From: Oscillospiraceae bacterium
GTDB taxonomy: Bacteria; Bacillota; Clostridia; Oscillospirales; CAG-272
Assembly: GCA_015063545.1 (NCBI GenBank)
Contig: SVTX01000001.1
Coordinates: 87,994-145,011 of the forward strand
Direction: 5' to 3'
Length of the DNA: 57,018 nucleotides
Shown piece after piece: positions 6,854 to 46,420 of this stretch. How positions within the stretch are numbered: the first letter of the stretch is position 1; every line of letters begins with the position of its first letter. The translations under genes and the position numbers were made by a program. The notes below the pieces were generated by a model. It searched no databases. It had not been told where the DNA came from and saw only the letters and a program-made list of their open reading frames with translations.

Positions 6854-7318
6854 TTATCTTCTGCGGCGACGTCTTTTCCCACTTTGAAAGCTTTTGCTAC
6901 CCATAAAACAACCCATCACCCCACAAGCGATCATGAGACATCGTAACCCCCAGAATTTAACGGCACTCATATCCCCCGTTGTTGAGGGAAGCAGGGGATA
7001 CATTAAAAGAGCAAGGATCACGTTCATAAAACAAAAGATCGCTGCGCAGAGAGCAATATTGCCCTTGAAAAGTCTGTAGCTGACAAATCCCCCGAGCATG
7101 GCGCATGGGTATGACAATACCGATGACACGATCAAAAGCGATTTTTCAGGATCGGGTTTTGTAAGCGAAAACAGAGCAGTAAGACTTATAACTACAATAG
7201 CGGCGGCGAGAGATATCAGCAGACCGCACAAGCAACATTTGACCACAAAAAATATTGACGATGTATCCTCTTTACTGTTTCTGTGGGTTTTGGATAAATA
7301 TTTTTTTCTGGTGTCCAT
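6854..7318 (-). CDS. TIGR04086 (YrzE-like) family membrane protein
   Basis: 154 residues with four predicted transmembrane helices (about 25-50, 62-84, 88-110, 120-140), a charged N-terminus and an arginine-rich tail. Size, four-helix layout and position directly after yajC match the TIGR04086/YrzE family of Firmicutes membrane proteins. Function is unknown. The ATG is preceded by GGAGGC and six U residues, all inside the 3' arm of the hairpin that also terminates yajC. The sigma-E-like promoter reading in that hairpin suggests sporulation-time expression; this is inference. Confidence 0.8.
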   Translation of the reverse strand: MDTRKKYLSKTHRNSKEDTSSIFFVVKCCLCGLLISLAAAIVVISLTALFSLTKPDPEKSLLIVSSVLSYPCAMLGGFVSYRLFKGNIALCAAIFCFMNVILALLMYPLLPSTTGDMSAVKFWGLRCLMIACGVMGCFMGSKSFQSGKRRRRRR

Positions 7319-7385
7319 AAAAAAGCCTCCGAATACATATTTTACACTATCGGTAAAATATATGTGTCCGAAGGCTTTTTTATTC
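7319..7385 (-). promoter_or_regulatory. Composite element: yajC terminator, sigma-E-like promoter and ribosome site of the TIGR04086 gene
   Basis: On the minus strand: GAATAAA (7385-7379), 14 bp, CATATATT (7364-7357). The -10 lies in the 5' arm of a hairpin whose loop (CGATAGT) holds the expected start near 7350. The 3' arm ends in GTATTCGGAGGC followed by U6 and the ATG. The stem pairs GCCTTCGGACACATA and TTTTAC with GTAAAAT and ATGTATTCGGAGGC, with G-U pairs and a TA bulge. As a terminator it closes yajC. Two blocks of the same design are at 23082-23141 and 46098-46159. Confidence 0.6.
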
Positions 7386-7398
7386 TTTTGTTATTTAA

Positions 7399-7689
7399 TC
7401 AGTCAATGCTGTCCTCGGCTTTAACGTCAACTCTGCTTACTGCACTCTTGAGAATTCTGATCTTGGTGCAGTCGCGAGACGTTTCGATAACACACGTCTC
7501 TTCCTTGATGCTTATGATCTTGCCGATGATTCCGCCAATGGTTGTGATCTCATCACCCACCTGAAGATTTGCGAGCATGTCCTTTGTCTGCTTTTCCTGC
7601 TTTTTGTTTGAACGCCACATGAAGAAGAACATAGCACCGATGACTACGACCATCATAAGCGTCATTGCAAGTGAACCTCCGCCACCCAT
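7399..7689 (-). CDS. yajC: Preprotein translocase subunit YajC
   Basis: 96 residues: a glycine-rich N-terminus, one transmembrane helix (about 7-26), then a short cytosolic domain with the family signature MLANLQVGDEITTIGGIIGKI. YajC associates with SecDF at the Sec translocon; secD/secF are not in this window. AAGGAAGG precedes the ATG. The gene has its own sigma-A promoter at 7734-7762 and is followed by the hairpin block that starts the TIGR04086 gene. Confidence 0.95.
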   Translation of the reverse strand: MGGGGSLAMTLMMVVVIGAMFFFMWRSNKKQEKQTKDMLANLQVGDEITTIGGIIGKIISIKEETCVIETSRDCTKIRILKSAVSRVDVKAEDSID

Positions 7690-7733
7690 AGTTTTAATTC
7701 CTTCCTTTATATGCTTAAATTTCTTTCTACATC

Positions 7734-7762
7734 ATTGTACACGAGCCATACCTTAAATTCAA
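7734..7762 (-). promoter_or_regulatory. Sigma-A promoter of yajC
   Basis: On the minus strand TTGAAT (7762-7757), 17-bp spacer, TACAAT (7739-7734). It is divergent from the rimM promoter at 7827-7855, with about 65 bp between the two -35 boxes. Confidence 0.7.
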
Positions 7763-7826
7763 TAACTAATTGTAAATTTTTTTTGCTCCCGTGTATCGAA
7801 TAATTTCAAAAAATTTGTTATTTTAG

Positions 7827-7855
7827 TTGCATTTTCATTTTGTGTGTGATATAAT
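7827..7855 (+). promoter_or_regulatory. Sigma-A promoter of rimM-trmD
   Basis: TTGCAT (7827-7832), 17 bp, TATAAT (7850-7855). The predicted start near 7862 leaves a leader of about 43 nt before the rimM ATG. Confidence 0.8.
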
Positions 7856-7904
7856 TACTATGTATAATTATATCTTAAGTAAAATAAGGACGAAAATCAG
7901 GAAT

Positions 7905-8414
7905 ATGAAAAGCAACTATCTTGAATGCGGAATCATAATAAATACACACGGGGTGGGCGGTGACGTAAAGCTTGAATCTCTTTGTGACACACCGCAGGTT
8001 CTTGCATCGTTTAAAAAAATATACTTCAAGGAAGGCGACGGCTACCGTGCCGCTAAGATACTGAAGGCATCTGTGTTTAAAAGCTTTGTTATTGCTCGCA
8101 TTGAGGGTATTGACGATATGGACAAAGCTATTTCGTTGAAAAACACCACAGTATATGCGGCGAGAAAGGATTTCAAGCTTCCCGAAGGGAGTTACTTTAT
8201 TGCAGACCTCATCGGTCTTGATGTAATTGATAACAAGAGTGGCAAGGTGTATGGGCAGATAACCGATGTGCAGAATAAGGGCGCGTCTGACATTTACGTT
8301 ATAAAAACCCCGGACGGAGAAAGAATGATGCCCGCTGTTGCGGAATTCGTAAAGAAAACAGATCTTGATAAAGGAGTATTCGTAGAAGTCATTCCCGGAA
8401 TGCTTTATGACTGA
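7905..8414 (+). CDS. rimM: Ribosome maturation factor RimM
   Basis: 169 residues from the ATG at 7905. An upstream in-frame start at 7827 is excluded because the promoter occupies it. The N-terminal domain begins LECGIIINTHGVGGDVKLESL, the RimM opening, and a C-terminal PRC-barrel contains YFIADLIGLDVID. RimM binds ribosomal protein S19 and assists 30S head assembly. trmD follows after 8 nt, the conserved pair. Confidence 0.95.
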   Translation: MKSNYLECGIIINTHGVGGDVKLESLCDTPQVLASFKKIYFKEGDGYRAAKILKASVFKSFVIARIEGIDDMDKAISLKNTTVYAARKDFKLPEGSYFIADLIGLDVIDNKSGKVYGQITDVQNKGASDIYVIKTPDGERMMPAVAEFVKKTDLDKGVFVEVIPGMLYD

Positions 8415-8422
8415 ACAGAATA

Positions 8423-9121
8423 ATGAGATTCGATATTATGACTCTTTTTCCGGACATGGTTGATTACATACTCGGAGAAAGTATTATAGGCAGAGCAAGA
8501 AAAAATAATTTTATAGATGTGCGTCTTCACAATATCAGAGATTATTCCGAGGACAAGCACCGCCGCGTTGATGACACCCCTTACGGTGGCGGCAAGGGAA
8601 TGCTTATGATGGCGCCGCCTATATACAATTGCTATTCTGCCATTCTGAACGAGCAGGCAGAGGAGAGCTTTGTGCCCGAGAGCAGAAGGGTGATATATAT
8701 GTCCCCCACAGGGAAGGTTCTCAATCAGAAGAAGGCAGAGGAGCTTTCAAAATACGACAACCTGATAATTCTGTGCGGTCATTACGAGGGAGTTGACAGG
8801 CGTATAGTCGATGAGATAGTTGACGAGGAGATATCTATCGGAGATTTTGTTCTTACAGGTGGAGAGATACCCGCGTGCATTTTGGTTGACTGCGTGGCAA
8901 GACTTGTGGATGGAGTTCTCTCGGATCCCGAGTGTCATGAAAAAGAAAGCATCTCATCGGGCATGTTGGAATATCCCCAGTATACACGGCCCTATGAGTT
9001 TCACGGTGTTAAGGTTCCCGATGTACTTATATCGGGGCATCATGCCAATATTGACAAATGGCGCGATGAAAGCGCGAAAAAATTAACGGAGCAGAACAGA
9101 CCGGATCTGCTGGAAAAATGA
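8423..9121 (+). CDS. trmD: tRNA (guanine-N1-)-methyltransferase TrmD
   Basis: 232 residues. The SPOUT deep-knot region includes LCGHYEGVDRRIVDE and the SAM-binding IGDFVLTGGE; the N-terminal RFDIMTLFPDM and DDTPYGGGKGM motifs are intact. TrmD makes m1G37 in tRNAs, preventing +1 frameshifts. The gene directly follows rimM. The ribosome site is poor, so translation is probably coupled. Standard gene order would continue with rplS, which is absent; a polysaccharide-type membrane gene follows instead. Confidence 0.97.
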   Translation: MRFDIMTLFPDMVDYILGESIIGRARKNNFIDVRLHNIRDYSEDKHRRVDDTPYGGGKGMLMMAPPIYNCYSAILNEQAEESFVPESRRVIYMSPTGKVLNQKKAEELSKYDNLIILCGHYEGVDRRIVDEIVDEEISIGDFVLTGGEIPACILVDCVARLVDGVLSDPECHEKESISSGMLEYPQYTRPYEFHGVKVPDVLISGHHANIDKWRDESAKKLTEQNRPDLLEK

Positions 9122-9148
9122 CGGTCAAATCCTTTGAGAGGAGGATAT

Positions 9149-11146
9149 TTGAAAGATATGGACAAGATCACCGAGAGAGAACAGGGCAAAAAAAGAACCG
9201 GCGGGTCTTTCTTTGGCAGACTTTGCCATGGTTTTTTGAACGTGATGAATTCACTGTTTGTAAAAAGCCACGTAGGCGGTAATATCGTATCAAGCGAAAG
9301 CCGTTATGAGAGCAGTACGATTGGCGAGGCAACCAAGAAGGAAAAAAGAAAGAGAACTTCACGTATAGCCGATTGGGTAAATATATTTTTAGCGAAAAGC
9401 AAGACAGCCCTCTTTTGCAAAGGCTTGACAAGAGCTGTCATGTCAATGTCGGTAAACGTATATGCGATATTCTTCACGGTGTACGGTATAACCTCGGCAT
9501 TACTTAATTATGCTATGATGTTTATTGATTGGGGCGACGGACACAGTCTTGAAGGACTTATTGTGTCGGTCGTGACGGTTATTCTGTCTATCCCATTTCT
9601 CACATCCTCAAAGTCCTTGACAGAGGTGGTCTCAGGCAGCCTGGTAATGGGCAAGGTGGTCAGATCGTTTTTGCTTATACCGGAGGAAAATCTTGTTACG
9701 AAAAAGCGCATAGGATCGACCGCATATATGCTTATATTTGCGGCATTGGGACTTTTGGCGGGCGCCGCAACGTATTTCGTTCACTCGCTTACAGCACCGC
9801 TTGTGTTTTTCGCAATAGTAGTTTTTCTTGTTATAATGTCTTTCCCGGAATCGGGAGTGATGTTGATAGCGGTAACGGTTCCTTTTTTGCAGTATGCAGA
9901 TAACTTAAAAGTAATACTGCCTATACTTGTGTGTACGACTTGCGCATCGTTTTTCTTGAAGGTATGGGGCGGAAAAAGAGTCAAAACAAGATCCTCCGAG
10001 GGAGTTATGTTTTCCTTCTTTTGCATATTGCTTGTAATCGGCTCGAGTTTTACTCTTGGTGGATGGCATACGTTCAGTGACGGTTTGTATGCTATGTTGT
10101 TCATGGTCGGGGGATTTTACGTTACCAAAAATCTCATGAGAAGCAAAGAAAAGCTTCGCGTGTGTACCAGGGCATTGATAATATCGTTCGGTATTCTTGT
10201 TTTTATGGGAATATGGGATCTGATATATGGAAAGGGCGCGGCAGAGGTTATCAAGTCGTCGCTTAACGACATAAGCTCACTGGTTTCCGAAAGAGTATTT
10301 TACATAGCTGACAGCGCATCGAATTTTGGCATTATAGCTTGTCTTATATGTCCAATACTGTTTTGCCATGCTTGTTCCAAAAAAAGCATTTCGGGAAGTG
10401 TCATTTCATTCATTTGCTTTATTGCGGCTATAGCAGCATCGCTTATATACGGAACCTACGAATCCCTTATAGCTATGTCAGTTGGACTTTTGGCATATAT
10501 TATTTTTAAAAGCAGAAAATCTTTTGCGGCACTCCTTATAACCGTAACTGTTATAAGCATCGGAATAATGCTTGCCGTATCATTTGTGCCTGATGAAATT
10601 ACAAATCGGGCGGTAACTGCAGTTGAAGACTATATTCCCGTTTCCGATCCTCAGACCGAAATACAGGACGAGGTGGAGCGTGATGTCCGGACAATGCTGA
10701 AGGACGGCAATCTTTCGGGAATAGGCGTGGGTGAACATGCATTTAATAAAACATTTGCCAACTATTCTTCTGAGGTGTCGGAGGAAGCGACGGGCCCGTC
10801 TAATTTGTATTTGCAGATAATATGCTGGTCGGGTGTAGGTGGACTTATAGTGTTCATTATCTTTTTCGTATTGGTGTTTAAGAAGGCAATAGGATACATA
10901 ATTACATCAAAGGATAAAGAGATACGTAGCACGGTTTTGGCATTGACGTGCGGATTAGCTTCTGCGTTGATACTTGGCATGGTCACATGCCTGTGGAATG
11001 ATGTGAGAATGCTATATTTGTTCTGGATGATGACGGGACTGCTGTGCGCTTGTGTTAAGCTCGGACGAGAGGAAGAGGACAGAAATGCACTTTTCTACAC
11101 GTTTGAAAACAATACGGCAGACATTTGCGTAAGATGGAAAAAATGA
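9149..11146 (+). CDS. O-antigen ligase / Wzy-like polytopic membrane protein
   Basis: About 666 residues from a TTG at 9149 (GGAGG 4 nt upstream); an ATG at 9158 is the alternative. A basic cytoplasmic N-terminus of ~95 residues precedes roughly 12-13 transmembrane helices and one large extracytoplasmic loop between late helices (about 490-555) containing GIGVGEHAFNKTFANYSSE, similar to the periplasmic loop of the O-antigen ligase/Wzy_C family. Such enzymes transfer or polymerise undecaprenyl-linked glycans. No other glycan genes are nearby, so the substrate is unknown. The two downstream genes may encode partners. Confidence 0.7.
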   Translation: MKDMDKITEREQGKKRTGGSFFGRLCHGFLNVMNSLFVKSHVGGNIVSSESRYESSTIGEATKKEKRKRTSRIADWVNIFLAKSKTALFCKGLTRAVMSMSVNVYAIFFTVYGITSALLNYAMMFIDWGDGHSLEGLIVSVVTVILSIPFLTSSKSLTEVVSGSLVMGKVVRSFLLIPEENLVTKKRIGSTAYMLIFAALGLLAGAATYFVHSLTAPLVFFAIVVFLVIMSFPESGVMLIAVTVPFLQYADNLKVILPILVCTTCASFFLKVWGGKRVKTRSSEGVMFSFFCILLVIGSSFTLGGWHTFSDGLYAMLFMVGGFYVTKNLMRSKEKLRVCTRALIISFGILVFMGIWDLIYGKGAAEVIKSSLNDISSLVSERVFYIADSASNFGIIACLICPILFCHACSKKSISGSVISFICFIAAIAASLIYGTYESLIAMSVGLLAYIIFKSRKSFAALLITVTVISIGIMLAVSFVPDEITNRAVTAVEDYIPVSDPQTEIQDEVERDVRTMLKDGNLSGIGVGEHAFNKTFANYSSEVSEEATGPSNLYLQIICWSGVGGLIVFIIFFVLVFKKAIGYIITSKDKEIRSTVLALTCGLASALILGMVTCLWNDVRMLYLFWMMTGLLCACVKLGREEEDRNALFYTFENNTADICVRWKK

Positions 11147-11177
11147 TATCTTATGATACACGAAAGGAATTGCTGAG

Positions 11178-11804
11178 ATGAATGATAATAAAAATATATC
11201 TCCCGAAGAAAAGAAGGACCTGAAGCATGCCGACATGAACAGATTCGGCACGGAAAGTCTTGATAACTCTGCTTTTGGCAGTGCGGAGATTGTTCATAAG
11301 GAGCGAACAAAAGAAAAGCAGCAGATACGCGGGGAGAGAGCTGCGGAAAATAAGAAAAGCAGAAATATACCGTTGGCATTGGATATAACTATTGCCGTAG
11401 TGGTGGTGTTGTTTGCCGCCGCGCTCGTGGTCGGTATTTATTTTATGTTCCAGCACTATACTGCGGGATATAAAAATGTAGATATTGAATATACTGTCGC
11501 AATAGAAGATGGCAACTTTGGTTTGGGTGAGGATCTGACAAAGCTGAAAGAGAAGGATGTCTATCTTGATTTTGAAGGCAACTCGCTGTACTTTGGTAAG
11601 ATCACAGATGTAAAGGTCAAAAAATCGCACGGCGGTACAAGACAGGTAACGGTGAGCATTACTACCGATTCCGAATATAAAGAGGGAGAGGGGTATTCCG
11701 TTGACGGACACAGAATCGCCGTGGGCAGTGAATACTGTTTGCGTATAGATCAGACGGAGTTTGATGCTACGGTTGTAGAGCTTGTGAAGGGGGGTAACAA
11801 ATAA
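11178..11804 (+). CDS. DUF4330-like membrane-anchored protein, first of a pair
   Basis: 208 residues: a hydrophilic, charged N-terminus of ~70 residues, one transmembrane helix (about 71-95, LALDITIAVVVVLFAAALVVGIYF) and an extracytoplasmic beta-rich domain. The C-terminal stretch GHRIAVGSEYCLRIDQTEFDATVVEL parallels GMNITVGSEIEVYTDNAEFTIVVKEL in the next gene, so the two appear to be tandem paralogues. Assignment to DUF4330 is from layout and context. It lies 31 bp after the O-antigen-ligase-like gene and shares one base (11804) with the next ORF. Confidence 0.65.
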   Translation: MNDNKNISPEEKKDLKHADMNRFGTESLDNSAFGSAEIVHKERTKEKQQIRGERAAENKKSRNIPLALDITIAVVVVLFAAALVVGIYFMFQHYTAGYKNVDIEYTVAIEDGNFGLGEDLTKLKEKDVYLDFEGNSLYFGKITDVKVKKSHGGTRQVTVSITTDSEYKEGEGYSVDGHRIAVGSEYCLRIDQTEFDATVVELVKGGNK

Positions 11805-12358
11805 TGAGAGATAATGCAGGCAAAAAGAGAATCGGCTTTAATGTATTTGATGTTTTCATTATACTTCTCGTTGTTATTCTCATAGCTACCGTGGGATACA
11901 AAATATACCAGACCACCTCCAAGGAAGCGCGAAAGGACAATCCTACGTGTACCGTGGTTTTCGAGTGTGACAGTGAGTATGATAGCCTCGGTGGGTATTT
12001 GAAAAACGGTGATGCTGTGTACCTAAAATCCACAGGACAGCTTTTAGGCTATATGTACGCATCGTCAACAAATGATGTTGTTCAGATCGTATCTAAAAAC
12101 GATAAAGAAGATGTACAGACCGATAAGGAAGATGCATCAGAGCTTCCCGGTGAAAAGAATGTAGAGATTGGAGCAGTTTACAGCCGTGTGAAATATACCG
12201 GAAAGCTCCGTCTGAACGGAAATGCGGAAAAGAGCCGCGAGGGTGCATTTTATATTCTTGAAGGAATGAACATCACGGTTGGAAGCGAAATAGAAGTATA
12301 TACCGATAACGCAGAATTTACAATAGTTGTGAAGGAATTAATAGACAAAAACAGCTGA
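11804..12358 (+). CDS. DUF4330-like membrane-anchored protein, second of a pair
   Basis: 184 residues. A basic N-terminus with GKKRIGFNVFDVFIILLVVIL leads into one transmembrane helix (about 12-33), followed by an extracytoplasmic domain whose end repeats the pattern of the preceding protein. Its ATG overlaps the preceding stop (TAATG). Proteins of this type occur next to O-antigen-ligase-like proteins in clostridia and may form an envelope complex; function is unknown. No clear terminator follows; the HPr promoter begins about 110 bp downstream. Confidence 0.7.
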   Translation: MRDNAGKKRIGFNVFDVFIILLVVILIATVGYKIYQTTSKEARKDNPTCTVVFECDSEYDSLGGYLKNGDAVYLKSTGQLLGYMYASSTNDVVQIVSKNDKEDVQTDKEDASELPGEKNVEIGAVYSRVKYTGKLRLNGNAEKSREGAFYILEGMNITVGSEIEVYTDNAEFTIVVKELIDKNS

Positions 12359-12466
12359 TGCTGTTTTGACGTGCCGGAACTCGATTATTTTCAAAAACGC
12401 ACCGTATTTGTGTATTTTGTAAAAAATATGATACCGAATATGTGCAAAATTGCTCCATATTGACAC

Positions 12467-12495
12467 TTGATTTTGTTTCTGTCTTTTGATATACT
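12467..12495 (+). promoter_or_regulatory. Sigma-A promoter of the HPr gene
   Basis: TTGATT (12467-12472), 17 bp, TATACT (12490-12495). A perfect TTGACA lies 7 bp further upstream, but its spacing to the -10 would be 24 bp. The leader from about 12502 to 12590 contains the hairpin at 12512-12531. Confidence 0.65.
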
Positions 12496-12511
12496 TATTA
12501 CAGTTAGAAGT

Positions 12512-12531
12512 GTATCGATACGCATCGGTAC
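12512..12531 (+). promoter_or_regulatory. Leader palindrome upstream of the HPr gene
   Basis: GTATCGAT (12512-12519) pairs with ATCGGTAC (12524-12531) around an ACGC loop, with one G-U pair. It begins about 10 nt after the predicted transcription start, a place suited to an operator or a 5'-end stabilising hairpin. No regulator can be named. Confidence 0.45.
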
Positions 12532-12590
12532 AGCATTGGAACAAAACCAATATTGGGCATTGATGTGCCCGCGAATAGGAGTAAGCTAAT

Positions 12591-12854
12591 ATGAAAACTC
12601 GCGAAGTAGTTGTAACAAATGACAGCGGTCTTCACGCAAGACCTGCAACTTTCTTTATTCAGAAGGCAAATTGCTATAAGTGCTCCATATACGTTGAAAA
12701 GGACGATCGCAAAGTAAACGCAAAGAGTTTGCTCGGCGTACTTTCACTTGGTATTGCAAAGGGTATGACGATCACCCTTATCGCCGATGGACAGGATGAA
12801 GAGGCTGCGCTCAATGGACTCGCTGCGCTTGTGAACTCTGGATTCAACGAATAA
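12591..12854 (+). CDS. ptsH: Phosphocarrier protein HPr
   Basis: 87 residues. GLHARPAT places the EI/EII phosphorylation site at His15, and AKSLLGVLSLG places the HPr kinase site at Ser46. Both are present, so this is HPr and not the histidine-lacking Crh. HPr transfers phosphate in the sugar phosphotransferase system, and P-Ser46-HPr is the CcpA corepressor in Firmicutes. The gene is monocistronic, between its own promoter and a strong terminator, with no ptsI nearby. Confidence 0.95.
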   Translation: MKTREVVVTNDSGLHARPATFFIQKANCYKCSIYVEKDDRKVNAKSLLGVLSLGIAKGMTITLIADGQDEEAALNGLAALVNSGFNE

Positions 12855-12871
12855 TCGAGGCAAAAGAAAAC

Positions 12872-12912: not shown

Positions 12913-12939
12913 GTCTAAAAACAGGGAGAGGAGATATTT

Positions 12940-14790: not shown

Positions 14791-14795
14791 ATATT

Positions 14796-21766: not shown

Positions 21767-22537
21767 ATGCTCCACTCCTACCATAACCACACCTACCGCT
21801 GCAACCACGCAGACGGAACAGAAAGAGAATATATAGAGGAAGCTATCGCCGCTGGAATAAAAACCCTTGGCTTTGCCGACCACGTTCCCATGCCGTTTGG
21901 CGGCGAGTACTACTCATTTTTCAGAATGAAATTAAACGAGACGGACGAATATTTCAAAACTCTCGAATCGCTCAAAAAAGAATACTCAAGCGATATAAAA
22001 ATCCGTATCGGATTTGAAGCTGAGTATTACCCCGACGTATTCCCCAAAATGATAAATTTTCTCAAGGATTACCCTTACGAATACCTCATTCTCGGTCAGC
22101 ATGCGTTGGGAAACGAGGAAAATGATCATTACTGTTCAAGAAAAACAACAGACAAAAATCAATTGACACGCTATATAGACCAAGTTACAGAAGGGATTTC
22201 AACCGGTAAATTCCTCTATATCGCCCACCCCGATATATTGAATTTTGTGGGCGACGATGACTTTTACAGAGCCGAGATGAGCCGATTTTGCAAATTTGCA
22301 AAGGAAAAGAACATCCCTCTTGAAATAAACGTCCTCGGTATGCGCGAGGGCAGAAATTACCCCAATGCGGAATTCTGGAGGCTCGCCGCAGAGCACGGTT
22401 GTGAGGCAGTTCTCGGCGCGGATGCGCACCACTCCTACCATGTACATGATACGGAAAACATCAAAAAAGCAAGAGATCTTGCGGATAGTGTAGGAATAAA
22501 AATGATCGAAACTCTTGAAGACAGATTGGATAAGTAA
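21767..22537 (+). CDS. hisJ: PHP-domain histidinol-phosphatase family protein
   Basis: 256 residues. The PHP metal motifs are visible: HNHTYRCNHADG near the start, FADHVP near 40, GFEAEYY near 85, GQHAL near 113, AHPDIL near 148 and GADAHHSYHV near 222. HisJ-type enzymes hydrolyse L-histidinol phosphate in histidine synthesis. No other his gene is present, so another phosphoester substrate is possible. It has its own promoter and is followed after 1 nt by the DUF5662 gene. Confidence 0.85.
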   Translation: MLHSYHNHTYRCNHADGTEREYIEEAIAAGIKTLGFADHVPMPFGGEYYSFFRMKLNETDEYFKTLESLKKEYSSDIKIRIGFEAEYYPDVFPKMINFLKDYPYEYLILGQHALGNEENDHYCSRKTTDKNQLTRYIDQVTEGISTGKFLYIAHPDILNFVGDDDFYRAEMSRFCKFAKEKNIPLEINVLGMREGRNYPNAEFWRLAAEHGCEAVLGADAHHSYHVHDTENIKKARDLADSVGIKMIETLEDRLDK

Positions 22538-22538
22538 A

Positions 22539-23087
22539 ATGAAAGATACAACATTCCATCCCATAAAGCATTTTCGTACTATAACAAAGCACAGACACAA
22601 GGTCATCTCCCACTGCTTTCGCGCAGGAATAGGATGGCAGGGGCTTTTCCACGACCTGTCAAAATATTCGCCCACGGAGTTTTCCGAGGGTGCAAGGCAT
22701 TATCTCGGCACGCGCAGTCCCAACGAGCGTGCCCGTGAGCTTTACGGATACTCGCTTGCATGGATGCACCATAAGGGACGAAACAAGCATCATTACGAGT
22801 ATTGGAGAGACGTCGATCCCAAGATAAAGCAGTATGTTCCAATAGAGATGCCTCTGCGCTACGTTACTGAAATGTTCTGTGACCGTGTTGCCGCATGTAA
22901 GATATATCGCGGCAAGGATTATACCGACAGCGCGGCGCTTGAATATTTTTTGCGCGGAAACGCGAAAAATATAATGCACCCCAACACAGCCGTGCTTTTG
23001 CAGAGCTGGCTTGAAATGCTTGCGCAAAAGGGAGAAGATGAGACTTTCTCCTATATAAAAAAGCTCAACAGATCAAATAAATCATAA
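22539..23087 (+). CDS. DUF5662 family protein
   Basis: 182 residues from the ATG at 22539, one base after the hisJ stop. It is rich in histidine and aromatic residues, with FHPIKHFRTITKHRHKVISHCF at the start, GLFHDLSKYSPTEF and AWMHHKGRNKHHYEYW. Spacing of the histidine/aspartate motifs (H..HDLSKY..HH) suggests an HD-like metal fold, as described for DUF5662. Substrate is unknown. The stop TAA overlaps the -35 of the dacF-like promoter. Confidence 0.8.
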   Translation: MKDTTFHPIKHFRTITKHRHKVISHCFRAGIGWQGLFHDLSKYSPTEFSEGARHYLGTRSPNERARELYGYSLAWMHHKGRNKHHYEYWRDVDPKIKQYVPIEMPLRYVTEMFCDRVAACKIYRGKDYTDSAALEYFLRGNAKNIMHPNTAVLLQSWLEMLAQKGEDETFSYIKKLNRSNKS

Positions 23088-23138
23088 AAAACATAAGCTC
23101 CTCATACTATTATGTAGATAATAGAGAGGAGCTTTTTT
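23082..23138 (+). promoter_or_regulatory. Composite element: DUF5662 terminator, sigma-E-like promoter and ribosome site of the carboxypeptidase gene
   Basis: TCATAAA (23082-23088), 14 bp, CATACTAT (23103-23110). The hairpin pairs AAGCTCCTC (23095-23103) with GAGGAGCTT (23126-23134) and CTATTAT with ATAATAG around GTAG (23114-23117); the expected start falls at that loop. The 3' arm GAGGAGC is the ribosome site, U6 (23133-23138) is the spacer and the ATG begins at 23139. As a terminator it ends the hisJ-DUF5662 transcript. Confidence 0.65.
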
Positions 23139-24332
23139 ATGAAATTTAAAAAACTTTTATGTGTTTTTCTGACAGCGCTGATGCTTTTATCTCCTGTCAA
23201 CGTGTATGCGACAGATTATACGTATCCCACTGACGATGGGGCGATAAATACTTCTTTGGACCAATCCGTGGAGGGAAATGAATTTGACTGTAAAAGCGCG
23301 ATTTTGATGGAAGCAAACACGGGCAAAATCCTTTATACGCAAAACGCAGATGAGGCTTTACCGCCTGCATCGGTTACCAAGGTAATGACACTTTTGCTTG
23401 TTATGGAGGCGATTGATGCAGGAAAAATAAAACTGACCGACAGCGTATCTGTCAGTGAGCATGCGGCATCAATGGGCGGTTCACAAATATTCCTTAAGGT
23501 CGGCGAGGAAATGAGCGTTGAGGATATGTTAAAAAGCGTTGTTATTGCCTCGGCAAATGATGCTGCCTGCGCTTTGGCGGAATTTGTTTGCGGAAGTGAG
23601 GGAACATTTGTTGAACAAATGAATGCTAAAGCCAAATCGCTCGGTATGAAAAATACCCATTTTGAAAACACCAACGGGCTTGACGATACTGCGCAGAATC
23701 ACGTCACCTCTGCGCGAGACATAGCCATAATGTCACGGGAGCTTATAAAACACAAAAAAATATTGGAATATAGCTCTATTTGGATGGATACGGTCAGAAA
23801 TGGGGCATTCGGACTTACCAATACCAATCGTTTGGTAAGGTTTTATAAGGGGTGTACAGGGCTTAAGACCGGCTCCACAGATAAGGCGGGATTTTGCATA
23901 AGCGCTACCGCAGAGAGAGAGGGAGTTTCTCTTATTTGCGTTATTATGGGCGCACCGACACGTGACGTGCGAAACAGTATAGCCACCAAGCTATTGGACA
24001 GAGGATTTGCAAATTTTGAAATGTATAGCGTCAAGGGAGATGTTTTGGCGGATATTCCGATCAAGGGAGCTATGAATGATTTTACTCAAGGAAGCTTTGA
24101 AAAATTCACATATCTTGCTCCCAAGGGCTCGGCATCAAAGATAACCCGAAGCATAATTATAAACGACAATCTGTGCGCGCCGCTTGTGAAGGGAGACGTA
24201 ATAGGTCGCGTGGTGTATCTTCTTGATGGCAAGGAGATAGGCTCTGTAGATATAGTAGCTTGTAATGATGAGAAGAAAATTCAGTATTTTGATCTGTTTT
24301 TGCGCGGAATTTCGCGATATTTTCTGAAATAA
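23139..24332 (+). CDS. D-alanyl-D-alanine carboxypeptidase (penicillin-binding protein 5/DacF/DacB type)
   Basis: 397 residues. A signal peptide (MKFKKLLCVFLTALMLLSPVNVYA) precedes the peptidase S11 domain with the SxxK motif SVTK near 79, SAND (SxN) near 135 and KTG near 245, then a C-terminal beta domain. It removes the terminal D-Ala of peptidoglycan stem peptides outside the membrane. The C-terminus (FDLFLRGISRYFLK) may anchor it as an amphipathic helix. The sigma-E-like promoter block suggests a sporulation-stage DacB-like role, an inference. Confidence 0.9.
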   Translation: MKFKKLLCVFLTALMLLSPVNVYATDYTYPTDDGAINTSLDQSVEGNEFDCKSAILMEANTGKILYTQNADEALPPASVTKVMTLLLVMEAIDAGKIKLTDSVSVSEHAASMGGSQIFLKVGEEMSVEDMLKSVVIASANDAACALAEFVCGSEGTFVEQMNAKAKSLGMKNTHFENTNGLDDTAQNHVTSARDIAIMSRELIKHKKILEYSSIWMDTVRNGAFGLTNTNRLVRFYKGCTGLKTGSTDKAGFCISATAEREGVSLICVIMGAPTRDVRNSIATKLLDRGFANFEMYSVKGDVLADIPIKGAMNDFTQGSFEKFTYLAPKGSASKITRSIIINDNLCAPLVKGDVIGRVVYLLDGKEIGSVDIVACNDEKKIQYFDLFLRGISRYFLK

Positions 24333-39236: not shown

Positions 39237-39266
39237 CTTGTTCAAAAGAAAGGAATTTACTTTAAT

Positions 39267-40760: not shown

Positions 40761-40821
40761 CTGTGTTAGCGTGTGATTTGCGGAATACAATATTATTATA
40801 TTTCGCATAGGAGGATTATAG

Positions 40822-41718
40822 ATGAATACACAGTACAAAACGGCATATCCCAAAATAGATAAAGATTTTGTGGCGGAATGCGACGCAAAATTCGATCGGA
40901 TGTTAAATATGACTACCGATCGGATATGCAAAGACAGAGACGTCAGGGTGGTGGGTATAACGGGCCCAACCTGTTCGGGAAAAACCACGGCGGCAAAGAA
41001 GGTAATAGGCTATTACCGTTCTCACGGAATAAAGCTCCACGTTATATCACTTGACGATTTTTTCAAAGATCAATTTTCCCGCGAGGACGAAATAGACCCC
41101 AAAAACGTGGATTTTGATTCTCCCGATACCTTTGACACAGAGGAATTTTATTCATTTGTGACGGATCTGTTTTCAAACGGAGAGGCACAAAAGCCCATAT
41201 TCGATTTCGTGACGGGAGACAGAAGCCGTCGGGAAACAGTTATAAACGGAGATGGAGACGTATTTCTTTTTGAGGGAATACAGCTTCTTTATCCGCAAGT
41301 GGATAAAATAATTCGTCAAATGAACGGAAAAAGCATATATCTGTGCGCCGAAAGCGGAATTCAGGTAGGAGATATATCTGTTTCCAAAGAGGAATTGCGT
41401 CTTATGCGCAGACTTGTCAGAGACAGCAATTTCCGCGCGGCGGATCCCATTTTTACGCTTGACCTTTGGGAAAGTGTAAGAAGAAATGAGGATATAAATA
41501 TACTTCCTTACGCTCACCGCTGTGATATTTGCATAGACACCACATTGGAATATGAGCTTAACATATTGAAGCCATATCTTGAAAAGATTCTCGGAGAGAT
41601 AGCCCCGGATAGTGAGCATTACAGCTTTTGCAGGCGAGTGCTGGATATGCTTTCGGGCATAAATGATATCAACAGAGAAGTGTTAAGCGATAACTCTCTT
41701 TATAATGAATTTGTATAA
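40822..41718 (+). CDS. Uridine kinase-like nucleoside kinase (P-loop)
   Basis: 298 residues. Walker A GPTCSGKTTAAKKV is near 50, with SLDDFFKDQFSRED near 78 and an FEGIQLLYP Walker B region near 152; the order matches the uridine/phosphoribulokinase superfamily. These clostridial kinases lack the usual short Udk length and may phosphorylate another nucleoside. AGGAGG lies 7 nt upstream, after a GCGGAATA/TATTTCGC hairpin at 40780-40806. It is followed by the amidohydrolase, possibly for nucleoside salvage. Confidence 0.8.
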   Translation: MNTQYKTAYPKIDKDFVAECDAKFDRMLNMTTDRICKDRDVRVVGITGPTCSGKTTAAKKVIGYYRSHGIKLHVISLDDFFKDQFSREDEIDPKNVDFDSPDTFDTEEFYSFVTDLFSNGEAQKPIFDFVTGDRSRRETVINGDGDVFLFEGIQLLYPQVDKIIRQMNGKSIYLCAESGIQVGDISVSKEELRLMRRLVRDSNFRAADPIFTLDLWESVRRNEDINILPYAHRCDICIDTTLEYELNILKPYLEKILGEIAPDSEHYSFCRRVLDMLSGINDINREVLSDNSLYNEFV

Positions 41719-41738
41719 AAAGGAAATAAAAAAGGAAA

Positions 41739-43028
41739 ATGAAAATACTTTTTAAAAACGTGCATTTGCCCGAAGAATACGGATTTGGCATGGGCAGTGT
41801 AAATGTTTTGGTAAATGATAAAATTATAGCTTATGTAGGTAAAGATCTTCCGAGTGGGGAGGCAGACAGAATAATTGAGGGACAAGGCAATTTGCTCGCC
41901 CCTGCATTCTATAATGCGCACTGTCACAGCGCAATGACACTGTTTCGCGGCTACGGAGACGATCTGGCTCTCAGAGAATGGCTGGACACAAAGATACTTC
42001 CCGCAGAAGAGCTTTTGAACGATACGCGTGTTTATTACGGCTCTGTAATGGCAATAGCCGAGATGATAAAAAACGGTGTGGTATCCTTTTCGGATATGTA
42101 CTTTTTTTTGGATTCCACCGCGCGCGCGGTCGGAGAGTGCGGAGTAAAGGCAAATATATCACGTTCGGTAGTATCCTTTGATCCTGATCTTGATGTTTTG
42201 ACCGACTCAAGAATCAAGGAAGGGCTCGATGCGTACAATAAGTGGCATAATGAGTTTGACGGAAGACTTCGTGTAGATATGTCGGTGCATGCGGAATATT
42301 CAAACGTTGAAAAATGTTGCAGATATGTCGGTGAGCTTGCAAAGGATCTCGGCACGGGAATTCAGCTCCATTTGTCCGAGACGAAGAGTGAGCATGAAAA
42401 GTGCATAGCTGAGCGCGGCATGACACCTGCGGAATTTTTTGAAAGTACGGGAGTATTTGATGTTCCCGTAACTGCGGCTCATTGCGTGTGGGTAAGCGAC
42501 AGCGATATAAAAATACTCGCCGATAAGGGTGTAAGCGTAGCGCATAACCCTGTAAGTAACTTAAAGCTTGCAAGCGGCATAATGCCTTATAACAAGATGA
42601 GGGATGCGGGAATAAACATTGCGCTTGGAACAGACGGAGTGGCTTCTAATAATAAACTCAGCGTTCTCCGCGAGATGCAGTATGCGGCGCTTATTCACAA
42701 GGGCAATACTTATAGTGCTTGCGCAACTCGCGCCTCGGATATGATAAAATGCGCGACCGAAAACGGAGCAAGGGCTCAGGGCAGAGAAAAGTGTGGCAGA
42801 GTGGAGGTTGGATACAACGCAGATCTTATTTTGGTAAATATGAACTCTGTCAATAATATTCCCGTATTCAGTTATGATTCGGCTCTCACTTACAGCGCGT
42901 GTGAATCCGATATACTTATTACCATGTGTGACGGACGCATACTTTACGAGTATGGAGAATATACTTCAATTGATATAGAGAAGATCACGGCAGAGGCGAA
43001 AGACGTCTTTGCGCACTATTTCGATTGA
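41739..43028 (+). CDS. Amidohydrolase, S-adenosylhomocysteine/methylthioadenosine deaminase type
   Basis: 429 residues. Metal-site motifs include NAHCHSAMTLFRGYGDDLALREWL near 57-81, HLSETKSEHE near 210, TAAHCVW near 244 and GTDGVASNN near 300. This pattern matches the MtaD/SsnA deaminase branch of the amidohydrolase superfamily, which deaminates adenosine-like substrates. Nucleoside deamination next to a nucleoside-kinase-like gene is consistent. Substrate is unproven. Confidence 0.85.
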   Translation: MKILFKNVHLPEEYGFGMGSVNVLVNDKIIAYVGKDLPSGEADRIIEGQGNLLAPAFYNAHCHSAMTLFRGYGDDLALREWLDTKILPAEELLNDTRVYYGSVMAIAEMIKNGVVSFSDMYFFLDSTARAVGECGVKANISRSVVSFDPDLDVLTDSRIKEGLDAYNKWHNEFDGRLRVDMSVHAEYSNVEKCCRYVGELAKDLGTGIQLHLSETKSEHEKCIAERGMTPAEFFESTGVFDVPVTAAHCVWVSDSDIKILADKGVSVAHNPVSNLKLASGIMPYNKMRDAGINIALGTDGVASNNKLSVLREMQYAALIHKGNTYSACATRASDMIKCATENGARAQGREKCGRVEVGYNADLILVNMNSVNNIPVFSYDSALTYSACESDILITMCDGRILYEYGEYTSIDIEKITAEAKDVFAHYFD

Positions 43029-43043
43029 GGGGTGTAGATATTA

Positions 43044-44627
43044 TTGAGACGTGTTGAGGGGGAAACAAACGAAAAAAGCAGGAAGTTTATATCCGGCGTT
43101 TATGTTTTGACGCTTTCAACAGTTATCGTTAAAGTAATAGGTCTTATATATAAAATTCCCATGCTGAAGCTACTGGGTAATGTCGGCATGGGATACTTTA
43201 ATTGTGCTTATGAAATATACGCATCGTTTTGCGTGATATCAACGTCGGGCATGCCGGTCGCGATGTCACTTCTGATATCCGGAACAAAAGATGAGGGTAG
43301 AAGAAAAAGAATATTCAAGGTCGCCCTATTTACGTTTTTTGTTATCGGCGTGTTGTGCATGGCGCTGATACTTGGACTGGCGCATCCGTTTTCCGTATTT
43401 TTGGGAAGCCCGGACACGTATGTGTCGCTCTTGTGTATTTCTCCTGCTATATTTTTTATATGCCTCTCAAGCGCTGTGAAGGGGTATTTCCAAGGGCTTG
43501 GAGAAATGAACCGCACCGCTGTATCACAGGTCATAGAAGCTGTTGGTAAGCTTGCGTTTGGATTGCTTTTTGCAAGCTTGTCCGTAAGGCTTGGCATGGA
43601 ACTTAAATATATTGCTTCAATGGCGGTGCTGGGACTGACACTGGCGGAAATGTTGTCCGCTGCATATTTGTTTGTCTCTAAAGGCAAAGCTCCACCGTGT
43701 GTTGACGATGGGCAAAAAGACAGGAAAGTGTTTGGCGAGCTTATGAGGACGACGATTCCCATAACGGTTTCGGCATCGGTGTTGAGTATAACGAAGCTTG
43801 TGGATATGACAATGATATTCAGAAGGCTTGGCAGTTTGGGTTATGACAGCAATTTGATAAATGCCATATACGGCAGTTACACGACTTTGGCAATACCTCT
43901 TTTTAGTCTCGCTCCCGCGCTGGTCAGCTCGATAGCTTTACCGCTTATTCCGGCGATTTCGTCAGCTAACGCGGAGAAAAACACAGAAATGCAGGATCAG
44001 ATAGCCCGCAGAGCATTTAAACTCACAGCGCTGATATCAGCACCCATAGGCGCCGGACTTGTAATATTTTCAAGACCGATATTAGAGCTTATCTTTTCGG
44101 GTGAGCATGAGGCGATATCTTACGCAGCGCCGCTTTTGACAGTGCTGGGGCTTTCCGTGCTTTTGTCCTGCCTTATAAGTGTGCAGAATGCATTGTTGCA
44201 AGCATATCACAAGCCTAATCTTCCAATCATATCTATGCTGTGTGGCTCGGCACTCAAAATAGCGCTCTGTTATTGGCTTGTCGGTAATGAAAGCGTAAAT
44301 ACTTATGGCATCCCGATAGGTACGTTTGCTTGTGACGTTTGCATAAGCGCGATGAATTTTGCTTTTCTGGCAAAGCACTCGCCCCTCAAATTTAAATTTT
44401 CGGACATTTTGGCAAAGCCGTACTTTTGCGCGATATTAGCGTGTATCGCATCTTATCTGTTGGCGCTGACGGTGAAAATTCCAAATTGCGGAATTGCCAT
44501 AGATGTGCTGATAAAAATTGGCGTGTCTGCGGCGGCGTATTTGATACTTTTGTTTATCACCCGCACATTAGATAAAAATGAAATAAACATATTACTGTTA
44601 AAAAACACAACACATAAAAGGACGTAA
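43044..44627 (+). CDS. SpoVB/YabM-type lipid flippase (MOP superfamily)
   Basis: 527 residues from a TTG start with GAGGGG 11 nt upstream. About 14 transmembrane helices; N-terminal KFISGVYVLTLSTVIVKVIGLIYKIPMLKLLGNVGMG is the SpoVB family opening. These proteins flip undecaprenyl-linked glycans; SpoVB is required for spore cortex in B. subtilis. Position just upstream of mazG matches YabM. No sigma-E-like element with 14-bp spacing was found upstream. Confidence 0.88.
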   Translation: MRRVEGETNEKSRKFISGVYVLTLSTVIVKVIGLIYKIPMLKLLGNVGMGYFNCAYEIYASFCVISTSGMPVAMSLLISGTKDEGRRKRIFKVALFTFFVIGVLCMALILGLAHPFSVFLGSPDTYVSLLCISPAIFFICLSSAVKGYFQGLGEMNRTAVSQVIEAVGKLAFGLLFASLSVRLGMELKYIASMAVLGLTLAEMLSAAYLFVSKGKAPPCVDDGQKDRKVFGELMRTTIPITVSASVLSITKLVDMTMIFRRLGSLGYDSNLINAIYGSYTTLAIPLFSLAPALVSSIALPLIPAISSANAEKNTEMQDQIARRAFKLTALISAPIGAGLVIFSRPILELIFSGEHEAISYAAPLLTVLGLSVLLSCLISVQNALLQAYHKPNLPIISMLCGSALKIALCYWLVGNESVNTYGIPIGTFACDVCISAMNFAFLAKHSPLKFKFSDILAKPYFCAILACIASYLLALTVKIPNCGIAIDVLIKIGVSAAAYLILLFITRTLDKNEINILLLKNTTHKRT

Positions 44628-44631
44628 AAAA

Positions 44632-45462
44632 ATGAACACACAAGAAATACTTTGCAGAAAAAAAGAGCTTTTGGAAAAGCAGAATTATCATTTTGAGGAT
44701 CTTGTCCTTATAGTAGAGCTTTTGAGAAGCGAAGGCGGATGCCCGTGGGATATGGAGCAGACGCACAAAAGCATCCGAAATGATTTTATTGAGGAGACGT
44801 ACGAGGTCATAGAGGCCATCGATACGGAGGATCCAAAGCTTATGAGGGAAGAACTGGGAGACGTGCTTTTGCAGGTGGTATTTCATGCTCAGATCGAGAC
44901 CGAGGAGGGACGATGCAACATTGATGACGTTGCCAATGATATATGTAAGAAACTTATACACAGACATCCCCATGTATTTGCAGACGTTCAGGTAAGCAAC
45001 AGCACCGAGGTGTTGAGCAATTGGGAAAAAATAAAAGGAGTGGAAAAGCAGAGAATAACACTTACCGATAAGCTCAATGCCATTCCCCCCATGTATCCGG
45101 CTCTCATCCGCGCGCAGAAGGTGGGCAAAAAAGCAAGCTTTTTCGATTTTGAAAATATAGAAGATGTGTACGCCAAGCTTTACGAGGAGATAGATGAGGT
45201 AAAGGATGCCTCTGCCACCAAGACAAAAGCAGAGGTCGAGGAAGAACTCGGAGATCTGCTTTTGACGGTTACGAGCCTTGCGCGAAAGCTTGGAGTGAAC
45301 TCGGAGGAGGCGCTGTTTAAGGCGACAAATAAGTTCATTGACAGGTTCTCGAAGGTTGAAAAAGAGGTTATAAAACAAGGAAAAAACGTGGAAAACATGT
45401 CAATGACCGAGCTTGATGCGGTGTGGGATAGCATAAAAGGGCAAAAAAACGTCGAAATCTAA
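44632..45462 (+). CDS. mazG: Nucleoside triphosphate pyrophosphohydrolase MazG
   Basis: 276 residues with two MazG domains, each carrying the EExxE...ExxD motif: RNDFIEETYEVIEAID...EELGDVLLQVVFHAQ near 85 and YEEIDEVKDA...EEELGDLLLTVTSLAR near 205. The N-terminal GGCPWDMEQTH is diagnostic. MazG hydrolyses NTPs to NMP and pyrophosphate. It corresponds to the C-terminal part of B. subtilis YabN but lacks the methylase half. It begins 4 nt after the flippase stop. Confidence 0.95.
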   Translation: MNTQEILCRKKELLEKQNYHFEDLVLIVELLRSEGGCPWDMEQTHKSIRNDFIEETYEVIEAIDTEDPKLMREELGDVLLQVVFHAQIETEEGRCNIDDVANDICKKLIHRHPHVFADVQVSNSTEVLSNWEKIKGVEKQRITLTDKLNAIPPMYPALIRAQKVGKKASFFDFENIEDVYAKLYEEIDEVKDASATKTKAEVEEELGDLLLTVTSLARKLGVNSEEALFKATNKFIDRFSKVEKEVIKQGKNVENMSMTELDAVWDSIKGQKNVEI

Positions 45463-45513
45463 AATTTTTTTGTAAAAAATGTGCTTTTTTTCAAAAAAAA
45501 TAGAAGAAAACTA

Positions 45514-45542
45514 TTGAAATATCATAAAAAGTGTGCTATAAT
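45514..45542 (+). promoter_or_regulatory. Sigma-A promoter of the HU gene
   Basis: TTGAAA (45514-45519), 17 bp, TATAAT (45537-45542), in an A/T-rich stretch. It would drive HU and rqcP up to the hairpin at 46113-46156. Confidence 0.8.
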
Positions 45543-45582
45543 TATCTTGCTTAAAAAAATAAAAAAAGGAAGGTATTTTACC

Positions 45583-45855
45583 ATGAATAAGTTACAGCTC
45601 ACAGAAGCAGTTGCAGCTAAGGCCGGCATTTCTAAGAAGGCAGCTGCAGAGGCAGTTTCCGCAGTTCTCGACGTTATCGCTGACGCTCTCGCAGCAGGCG
45701 ACGACATTAAGATCACAGGCTTCGGTTCTTTCGAGGTTAAGGCTCGTGAAGCAAGAGTAGGCAGAAACCCCAAGACAGGTGAACCCGTACAGATCCCCGC
45801 TTCCAAGTATGTTTCCTTCAGCGCAGGTAGCGTTCTTAAGGACAAGGTAAACTAA
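45583..45855 (+). CDS. hup: DNA-binding protein HU
   Basis: 90 residues from the ATG at 45583 after AAAAAAGGAAGG; upstream in-frame codons overlap the promoter. The fold is intact: NKLQLTEAVAAKAGISKKAAAEA, GFGSFEVKAREARVGRNPKTGEPVQIPA with the beta-arm proline, and C-terminal SAGSVLKDKVN. HU bends and compacts DNA. Codons are strongly optimised (lysine only AAG, no ATA). It is inserted between mazG and rqcP, unlike in B. subtilis. Confidence 0.97.
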   Translation: MNKLQLTEAVAAKAGISKKAAAEAVSAVLDVIADALAAGDDIKITGFGSFEVKAREARVGRNPKTGEPVQIPASKYVSFSAGSVLKDKVN

Positions 45856-45861
45856 TATTTA

Positions 45862-46107
45862 ATGCGACTTGACAAATATCTCAAGGTTTCAAGAATAATA
45901 AAGCGCAGAACTGTTGCCAATGAGGCATGCGATGCCGAGCACGTAAGTGTCAACGGCAGACCTGCCAAAGCCTCTTACGAGGTAAAGACGGGCGACGTTA
46001 TTGAAATAAGCTTTGGGCAAAGAACCCTCAAGGTCAAGGTTCTTGACGTTAAGGACTATACCGCCAAGGCGGATGCTTCCTCGCTTTATGAAGTACTGAA
46101 TAATTGA
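45862..46107 (+). CDS. rqcP: S4-domain RNA-binding protein RqcP (YabO/HSP15 family)
   Basis: 81 residues: an N-terminal S4 domain (MRLDKYLKVSRIIKRRTVANEACDAEHVSVNGRPAKASYEVKTGD with long motif broken here only by reading) typical of RqcP. RqcP binds stalled 50S subunits and acts with RqcH in poly-alanine tailing; rqcH is not in the window. It lies 6 nt after HU. The stop abuts the -35 of the yabP promoter candidate. Confidence 0.9.
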   Translation: MRLDKYLKVSRIIKRRTVANEACDAEHVSVNGRPAKASYEVKTGDVIEISFGQRTLKVKVLDVKDYTAKADASSLYEVLNN

Positions 46108-46156
46108 AAATCCCTCCGCATATAATGTACAAAACATTATTATGCGGAGGTTTTTT
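46098..46156 (+). promoter_or_regulatory. Composite element: rqcP terminator, sigma-E-like promoter and ribosome site of yabP
   Basis: GAATAAT (46098-46104), 14 bp, CATATAAT (46119-46126). The hairpin pairs CCTCCGCATATAATGT (46113-46128) with ACATTATTATGCGGAGG (46134-46150), one bulged base, loop 46129-46133; a start 7 nt after the -10 falls at the loop. The 3' arm ends in GGAGG, followed directly by U6 (46151-46156) and the yabP ATG at 46157. This is the clearest of the three such blocks; yabP is sigma-E controlled in B. subtilis. Confidence 0.7.
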
Positions 46157-46420
46157 ATGCTTGGCGGATCGGAACATTCATTTGTGTCGGAGATGAGAAA
46201 AAATATAAAATTGCGCGGAGTGGAGGAGGTCGTAAGCTTTGACGACAGAGAAGTAGTGCTTAAAACTCAGTGTGGCGGCATGACTGTGGAGGGAGAAGAG
46301 CTGCATATAGCGGTGTTGAATGTTGAGGAGGGGCGAGTGGAGCTTGACGGAAGGATCGACGGTCTTTTTTATTTTGACGATACACCATCACAGAAAAAGA
46401 AGCTGTTTGGCAAAAGATAA
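46157..46420 (+). CDS. yabP: Spore cortex/sporulation protein YabP
   Basis: 87 residues from the ATG at 46157, 6 nt after GGAGG. An in-frame ATG at 46142 lies inside the hairpin stem without a ribosome site and is rejected. It shares the beta-rich YabP/YqfC domain (LRGVEEVVSFDDREVVLKT, then VEGEELHIAVLNVEEGRVELDGRIDGLFY). The family is confined to spore formers. It is followed after 17 nt by yabQ, the conserved pair. Confidence 0.9.
   Translation: MLGGSEHSFVSEMRKNIKLRGVEEVVSFDDREVVLKTQCGGMTVEGEELHIAVLNVEEGRVELDGRIDGLFYFDDTPSQKKKLFGKR

Follow-up and report, generated by a model that had tools for sequence, protein, structure and literature searches.

Sigma-E-type promoters set within hairpins may insulate spore genes from read-through in an Oscillospiraceae bacterium

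Spore genes that lie behind housekeeping genes risk being expressed during growth, and this raises the question how such a gene might be kept from being translated when RNA arrives from upstream. We addressed it in a 57,018-nt stretch of DNA from Oscillospiraceae bacterium (assembly GCA_015063545.1, contig SVTX01000001.1, positions 87,994 to 145,011; hereafter the window), where three intergenic blocks (A, B and C), each some 60 bases long and located between codirectional genes, carry a sigma-E-like promoter within a strong hairpin. The hairpin covers the -10 element and part of the spacer between -35 and -10, its 3' arm contains the Shine-Dalgarno sequence (SD) of the next gene, and six T residues (T6) and the ATG follow. 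These three promoter-in-hairpin blocks were confirmed as real, and coordinates and folds agreed with the common order of -35, N14, -10, SD, T6 and ATG that an earlier sequence-only reading of the window had described. The elements are probably self-insulating spore-gene promoters, the gene being translated only from RNA of its own developmental promoter.

Folding of read-through and promoter-start RNA

Hairpin energies of -26.7, -20.1 and -24.2 kcal/mol were calculated for blocks A, B and C, with z scores of -6.9, -6.3 and -8.1, respectively. The complement of the SD (anti-SD) lies in the -35/-10 spacer of all three blocks and should therefore be present only in read-through RNA. On folding, RNAs starting after the -10 element did not re-form the SD hairpin in any of them. 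The predicted cost of opening the SD was 16.3 kcal/mol in read-through RNA and 0.9 in promoter-start RNA for A, 14.6 and 0.6 for B (gene dacF), and 14.7 and 4.9 for C (gene yabP). With shuffled promoter segments (60 dinucleotide shuffles) the mean opening cost was 4.2, 3.5 and 4.7 kcal/mol for A, B and C. The own-promoter RNA would start 3' of the 5' arm for the predicted promoters and also for starts moved by +2 to +10 after the -10 element. Median promoter-start costs over these shifts were 0.9-4.8 kcal/mol at hairpin-bearing loci of the genus, with single loci up to 9.3 at +2 and 7.1 at +6 and with only 5 of 10 dacF loci scorable at +8 and +10.

When all genes of the window were ranked by upstream-dependent SD closure (48 open reading frames (ORFs) taken as genes, a recognisable SD in 33), the blocks took ranks 1 to 3 with 15.0, 13.6 and 9.8, the fourth value being 7.4 and the median 0.1. 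The SD of an ftsL-like ORF (46967-47380) falls within a hairpin (GAATCCTC...GAGGATTTTG) that lies in yabQ at window positions 46895-46975, with an upstream-dependent cost of 7.4 kcal/mol; a sigma-E-like promoter was not found at this hairpin.

Hairpins and neighbour orientation in the genus

Six genes (yabP, spoIVA, ylbJ, sipL, dacF and the gene 3' of block A, here also called A) were compared in 12 genomes of the genus, and a hairpin was scored at an extra SD-opening cost of at least 6 kcal/mol. Hairpin presence tracked the orientation of the upstream neighbour across the genus, even for spoIVA alone. Hairpins were found at 41 of 47 evaluable loci with a codirectional neighbour (yabP 12/12, spoIVA 8/10, A 10/11, dacF 10/11, sipL 1/3) versus 1 of 19 with a divergent one (ylbJ 1/9, sipL 0/8, spoIVA 0/2). 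Each of the 34 genus loci of yabP, A and dacF has a codirectional homologue of rqcP, yajC or DUF5662 upstream, and orientation at spoIVA, ylbJ and sipL was judged by hand from ORF lists and homology. In genomes G000 and G002 spoIVA is preceded by another gene, oriented divergently, and lacks the hairpin; the other ten genomes have a codirectional upstream gene, with eight strong and two weak hairpins. The spoIVA hairpin of G001 (locus L309) has an extra stretch in its loop, with both element ends retained. Not evaluable were three of 12 ylbJ loci and one of 14 A loci; for sipL the second fragment of G003 was left out and G009 gave no match.

In the window the control gene ylbJ has the promoter TCATAAT-N14-AATAAAAT with the same 14-nt spacing, no SD hairpin and no codirectional upstream gene, its neighbour yqfC being divergent, as the sequence-only reading had stated. 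That reading had proposed shielding from read-through with ylbJ as the no-neighbour control, and the genus comparison supports it. The promoters and SDs of ylbJ (-) and yqfC (+) crowd around a 57-base gap (window 1391-1447). The pattern CATANNNT-N6-36-GAGG-N0-4-TTTT gave 396 versus 272 matches summed over the 12 genomes, with overlapping matches counted, and ten candidate places taken among the matches listed for it led to spoIVA and sipL, so that the relatives have at least these members.

Conservation, compensatory changes and arm swaps

Proteins encoded 3' of block A in the genus are only 19-47% identical to that of the window, and the element was kept in 10 of 11 loci; the block C hairpin was kept in 12/12 genomes. 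Double compensatory changes occurred in at least one sequence at 9 of 25 pairs in A and at 7 of 17 in dacF. Loops and stem lengths differ greatly between genomes. In eight of ten aligned genus loci the dacF promoter is shifted, with AATATAAT towards the loop and not CATACTAT in the stem (in G001, G005 and G010 the promoter scored differs from AATATAAT).

Swapping hairpin arms between loci changed the mean fold from -27.1 to -21.9 for A, from -21.6 to -13.6 for dacF and from -17.6 to -9.8 for yabP outside the genus. The loss was smaller for yabP of the genus (-25.9 to -23.5), for a second set of 17 yabP loci (-25.9 to -23.0) and for spoIVA (-26.4 to -25.0). The control ylbJ was not weakened (-7.6 to -8.8), and sipL changed little (-10.4 to -9.0).

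Sequence elements and neighbouring genes

The block promoters are presumably of sigma-E type: all three have the KMATA-type -35, the 14-nt spacer and the CATANNNT-type -10 that we take to be the consensus. KMATA-N16-CATANNNT matched the window four times versus 0.57 expected, with three of the matches being blocks A, B and C and the fourth lying within ylbJ on the opposite strand (1250-1278). Owing to the high symmetry of block A, the opposite strand also shows a promoter-like ATA-N16-CATATTTT (window 7317-7343, +). The stop codon of the DUF5662 gene overlaps the -35 of block B, and that of the S4/RqcP-like gene lies at the -35 of block C; hisJ lies further upstream of block B and an HU-like gene further upstream of block C (Table 1). 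RqcP and HU are labels of the sequence-only reading, whereas dacF is our own name for the carboxypeptidase gene behind block B. The same reading had placed sigma-A promoters before the upstream units. Clear sigma-A-like candidates lie before hisJ (11/12 matches) and before ATG 45584, taken as the HU start (11/12); the candidate before yajC is weak (9/12), and its region has fewer matches than its shuffled versions.

Table 1. Features of the window and further elements of the same genome
Feature	Position	Strand	Description
Block A	7316-7385	-	start codon ATG 7318-7316
Block A promoter, sigma-E-like	7357..7385	-	-35 GAATAAA 7385-7379, 14 nt, -10 CATATATT 7364-7357
Block A hairpin	7320..7380	-	-10 in 5' side; SD GGAGG 7330-7326 in 3' arm; T6 7324-7319
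Gene 3' of block A	6854..7318	-	TIGR04086/DUF3792-like membrane protein, 154 aa; both matches under curated cut-offs
yajC	7399..7689	-	codirectional gene upstream of block A
Block B	23082-23141	+	start codon ATG at 23139
Block B promoter, sigma-E-like	23082..23110	+	TCATAAA 23082-23088, 14 nt, CATACTAT 23103-23110
Block B hairpin	23095..23134	+	SD GAGGAG 23126-23131 in 3' arm, C, T6 23133-23138
Gene 3' of block B (dacF)	23139..24332	+	D-alanyl-D-alanine carboxypeptidase; Peptidase_S11 match
DUF5662 gene	22515..23087	+	codirectional gene upstream of block B
Block C	46098-46159	+	
Block C promoter, sigma-E-like	46098..46126	+	GAATAAT 46098-46104, 14 nt, CATATAAT 46119-46126
Block C hairpin	46113..46150	+	SD GGAGG 46146-46150 in 3' arm; T6 46151-46156
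yabP	46157..46420	+	starts at ATG following T-run; TIGR02892 73.7 bits, just below cut-off 75.4
S4/RqcP-like gene	45862..46107	+	codirectional gene upstream of block C; weak S4-type matches
ylbJ	275..1390	-	control gene; TIGR02871, E 2.5e-53, below curated cut-off
Element D	contig 55		before ymxH, TIGR02888 above cut-off; upstream gene with E1-E2 ATPase domain
Element E	contig 12		before DUF4830 gene; upstream rodA-like gene
Element F			before TspO-like gene, after transpeptidase-like gene (by eye); hairpin without T-run

Occurrence in the own genome

The assembly to which the window belongs (1.83 Mb, 92% complete) contains 67 sites of the form GAGG-N0-4-TTTT-N0-6-ATG. A loose promoter motif lies at most 70 nt from six of the 67, versus 0.72 in shuffles, and the strict motif was found at four, versus 0.11; this promoter count covers all 67 sites, and the fold energies considered are the 26 strongest of the 67. 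Hairpins of -20 to -28 kcal/mol are present at five of the six promoter-bearing sites (A, B, C, D and E), all five with a codirectional upstream gene. The sixth is ylbJ, without hairpin and with a divergent neighbour. Element F was found in addition.

The promoter motif with a downstream GAGG alone was hardly enriched genome-wide (41 places versus 35 in the reversed control). Only the motif combined with T-run, ATG and hairpin, as in the pattern search proposed in the sequence-only reading, stands out genome-wide. A looser promoter-plus-GAGG pattern (112 versus 57 in the reversed control) was uninformative because the SD-ATG signal alone would yield this excess, and a CTCC...GGAG...ATG pattern (203 versus 159) was too loose. 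Among 38 of the 41 places (C67:22323, C67:35792 and C67:38933 were left out), the motif stands outside longer codirectional ORFs at ten gene starts, namely A, B, C, D, F, spoVD, a radC-like gene, sipL, an M50-like gene and spoIIID. The M50-like gene had no NCBIfam match and its label comes from reading alone. At G000:C65:11566-11613 (-) (locus L153), the arrangement CATACGCT-GCCTCC...AGAGGTGGC-T7-ATG resembles another member, with an ORF of just 28 aa.

Enrichment for sporulation genes, also expected in that reading, is supported by a small number of genes. Among the five T-run members, ymxH (above the cut-off) and yabP (just under it) match an NCBIfam family named for sporulation; the other three belong to TIGR04086, D,D-carboxypeptidase and DUF4830.

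Loci outside the genus

After leaving out four of 54 yabP places (G046, G056 and the second weak matches of G028 and G054), 38 loci lay outside the genus, two of them not evaluable. The SD was sequestered in 17 of the 36 others, and 18 of the 36 had p<=0.05 versus 1.8 expected. Among the 17 sequestering loci the T-run was at least 4 in only three and at most 2 in 14, so sequestration appears more conserved than termination. The second yabP set, retrieved with one protein as query, comprised 17 loci. Thirteen carry the label Oscillospiraceae, several being close relatives. Eleven of the 17 sequester the SD, with T-runs of 4-6 in eight, 3 in two and none in one, and the stems are mostly quite unlike the stem sequence of the window. 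Among named yabP loci the nearest has the label Clostridiales and most others Oscillospiraceae.

For dacF there were 30 loci, from which L180 (truncated) and L197-L205 (more distant) were left out and two of the 20 entered were not evaluable. Outside the genus four of seven evaluable loci sequester the SD, one of them with a T-run of at least 4. Of the relatives of A outside the genus, L171 has the hairpin and L175 does not. L171 (G032) is a weak TIGR04086-like relative from another genus with the same promoter-hairpin-T-run block, TAATATT-N14-CATATGAT, and an opening cost of 17.6 versus 2.7.

SD sequestration hence seems to be the more widespread trait, to which a T-run is often added. The sequence-only reading had combined termination with a buried ribosome site; the burial was found again, and termination is the weaker half of the mechanism because most of the sequestering yabP hairpins outside the genus have no T-run.

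Proposed mechanism and alternative explanations

Anatomy of the element, folding difference, conservation, compensatory changes and the link to neighbour orientation were all computed. Together they suggest the following course of events, for which sigma factor, start site, termination and effect on translation are predictions. The spacer between -35 and -10 of a sigma-E-type promoter would encode the complement of the SD. A polymerase arriving from the codirectional upstream gene would transcribe the entire element, and its read-through RNA would fold into the long hairpin and bury the SD; where a T-run follows the stem, this RNA may also terminate at the start codon. A polymerase initiating at the sigma-E-type promoter would begin 3' of the anti-SD arm, and since the start lies downstream of this arm, the promoter-start RNA should be unable to form the hairpin and the SD would stay free.

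Several results weigh against self-insulation linked to the neighbour. The spoIVA hairpins of G003 and G006 are weak despite a codirectional neighbour, sipL lacks the hairpin in two of three codirectional loci, and G006 has none at A and dacF (the dacF start there is doubtful), while the divergent ylbJ of G002 passes the threshold. In the own genome, spoVD and the radC-like gene have motif and codirectional neighbour and yet no hairpin, so the rule seen at the five T-run sites does not extend to every promoter of this kind. Orientation is partly confounded with gene identity, most of the contrast being between different genes. For this reason, and because the species are related, the Fisher p of 3e-10 for hairpin versus orientation is not a true probability. 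Outside the genus spoIVA has a hairpin in only one of 16 loci (of 52 rows, 22 had no locus, and of the remaining 30 G029, at a contig edge, and G040, where no SD was found, were dropped). There, yabP sequestration is only somewhat commoner with an rqcP homologue upstream (14/27) than where none was found (3/9), and in the second yabP set the neighbour was identified in 2 of 17 loci.

The covariation of the hairpins is modest as well. One or more sequences break or gap 13 of 25 pairs in A and 10 of 17 in dacF, the RNAalifold covariation terms are small (-0.16, -0.89 and -0.51 kcal/mol), and yabP has a double change in only one of 17 pairs, as its lower stem, with promoter or SD sequence in each arm, hardly varies. 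The native arm was the single best in only 4/10 (yabP), 3/10 (A), 6/10 (dacF) and 1/6 (spoIVA) cases, in 2/9 of the second yabP set and in 8/17 of yabP outside the genus. Moreover, all swap sets except the two controls consist of hairpin-bearing loci only, a bias that favours native arms.

The same arrangement might result from ordinary compaction, in which the intrinsic terminator of the upstream gene shares 50-90 nt with promoter, SD and start codon, and burial of the SD is a by-product. Upstream gaps at yabP, A and dacF of the genus are indeed just about 50-90 nt (with G006 as the exception at A and dacF), the hairpin-bearing genus loci of yabP, A, dacF and spoIVA have a T-run of 4-7 after the stem, and a GGAGG 3' arm naturally suits a terminator arm. 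However, the 14 of 17 sequestering yabP loci with T-runs of at most 2 indicate that conserved sequestration is largely seen without terminators, and the hairpins of element F and of sipL in G001 lack the T-run. A simple terminator scan also lists none of blocks A, B and C, though stem and T6 are present in each; the length of the stems and their interruptions probably account for this. We therefore consider compaction an unlikely explanation. Hairpin, SD and T-run look like an expression platform and bring to mind cis-regulation of the promoter's own RNA by an attenuator or riboswitch. Such control is very improbable, given that the 5' arm, being encoded before the predicted start, would be missing from that RNA, that Rfam models gave no match at the gathering threshold in the window, and that loops vary between genomes. 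The near-perfect inverted repeats overlapping the -10 might instead work as DNA, as a cruciform or protein site affecting promoter activity. Such action would not lead one to expect that pairing partners centre on the SD or that the repeat disappears next to a divergent neighbour, and we give it hardly any credence.

Self-insulation of spore-gene promoters remains the explanation we favour. Whether the sigma-E promoter of this lineage is, more broadly, a reusable self-proofreading format, gained and lost with neighbour orientation and with the T-run as a later add-on in some clades, is an evenly balanced question. If it is, a message would be translatable only when the right sigma factor made it. 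Should self-insulation itself hold, a compact element of about 60 bases would check which polymerase produced the message. It would then also be a clear case of gene-neighbour orientation shaping regulatory RNA, and might provide a sequence signature for sigma-E targets in uncultured gut Clostridia.

Comparison with known systems

Protection from external promoters is reportedly known from Tn10/IS10, where, according to Davis et al. in 1985, outside transcripts are said to remain untranslated; that system differs from ours in being a mobile element with a transposase gene and no sporulation sigma factor. Premature-terminator attenuators are terminators just before genes, for example of an insertion sequence (IS), that stop expression from incoming transcription (PMC2965389). 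In contrast to the blocks, no promoter inside the hairpin is described in the cited part of that paper, and the word sporulation is absent from its main text.

A close mechanistic likeness is found in phage T4, where the SD of e, soc, 49 and I-TevI is buried in a helix of read-through RNA. In e and I-TevI the DNA encoding the 5' strand of this helix also holds the late promoter, so that late RNA is without this strand (PMC3014915, PMC2988022). Related cases are I-TevII/III, segB and mobE of Aeh1 (PMC3014915, PMC2988022). As there, read-through RNA would hide the SD and RNA from the own promoter would leave it free, here as a prediction from sequence; on folding, the SD of the blocks does lie within a stem formed in read-through RNA. 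The T4 cases differ in their phage late promoters, and the passages cited describe neither a fusion with T-run and start codon nor a link to neighbour orientation.

In the open-licence literature that was searched, only one described promoter-in-terminator or read-through-shielded sporulation gene was found, sigG (spoIIIG) of Bacillus subtilis. It lies downstream of spoIIGA-sigE, and it has been proposed that a large hairpin keeps read-through RNA from PspoIIG untranslated and is unable to form in RNA from PsigG (PMC5942855, citing Sun 1991 and Masuda 1988). Both sporulation biology and logic are shared with the blocks. The differences are that sigG is a single gene with a sigma-F/sigma-G promoter behind an operon that itself belongs to sporulation, with no T-run element mentioned in the part cited, whereas here several sigma-E-type genes are concerned, most of them preceded by genes whose names do not point to sporulation. 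The sequence-only reading had known no named system of this form. With the precedents of T4 and sigG the principle is already known and has even been proposed in sporulation, and the elements described here would, if they act as predicted, be a recurrent genome-scale use of a trick from phage T4 that was proposed for one B. subtilis gene. New relative to these precedents is that the arrangement recurs at sigma-E-type promoters, is fused with a T-run and the start codon, and depends on the neighbour.

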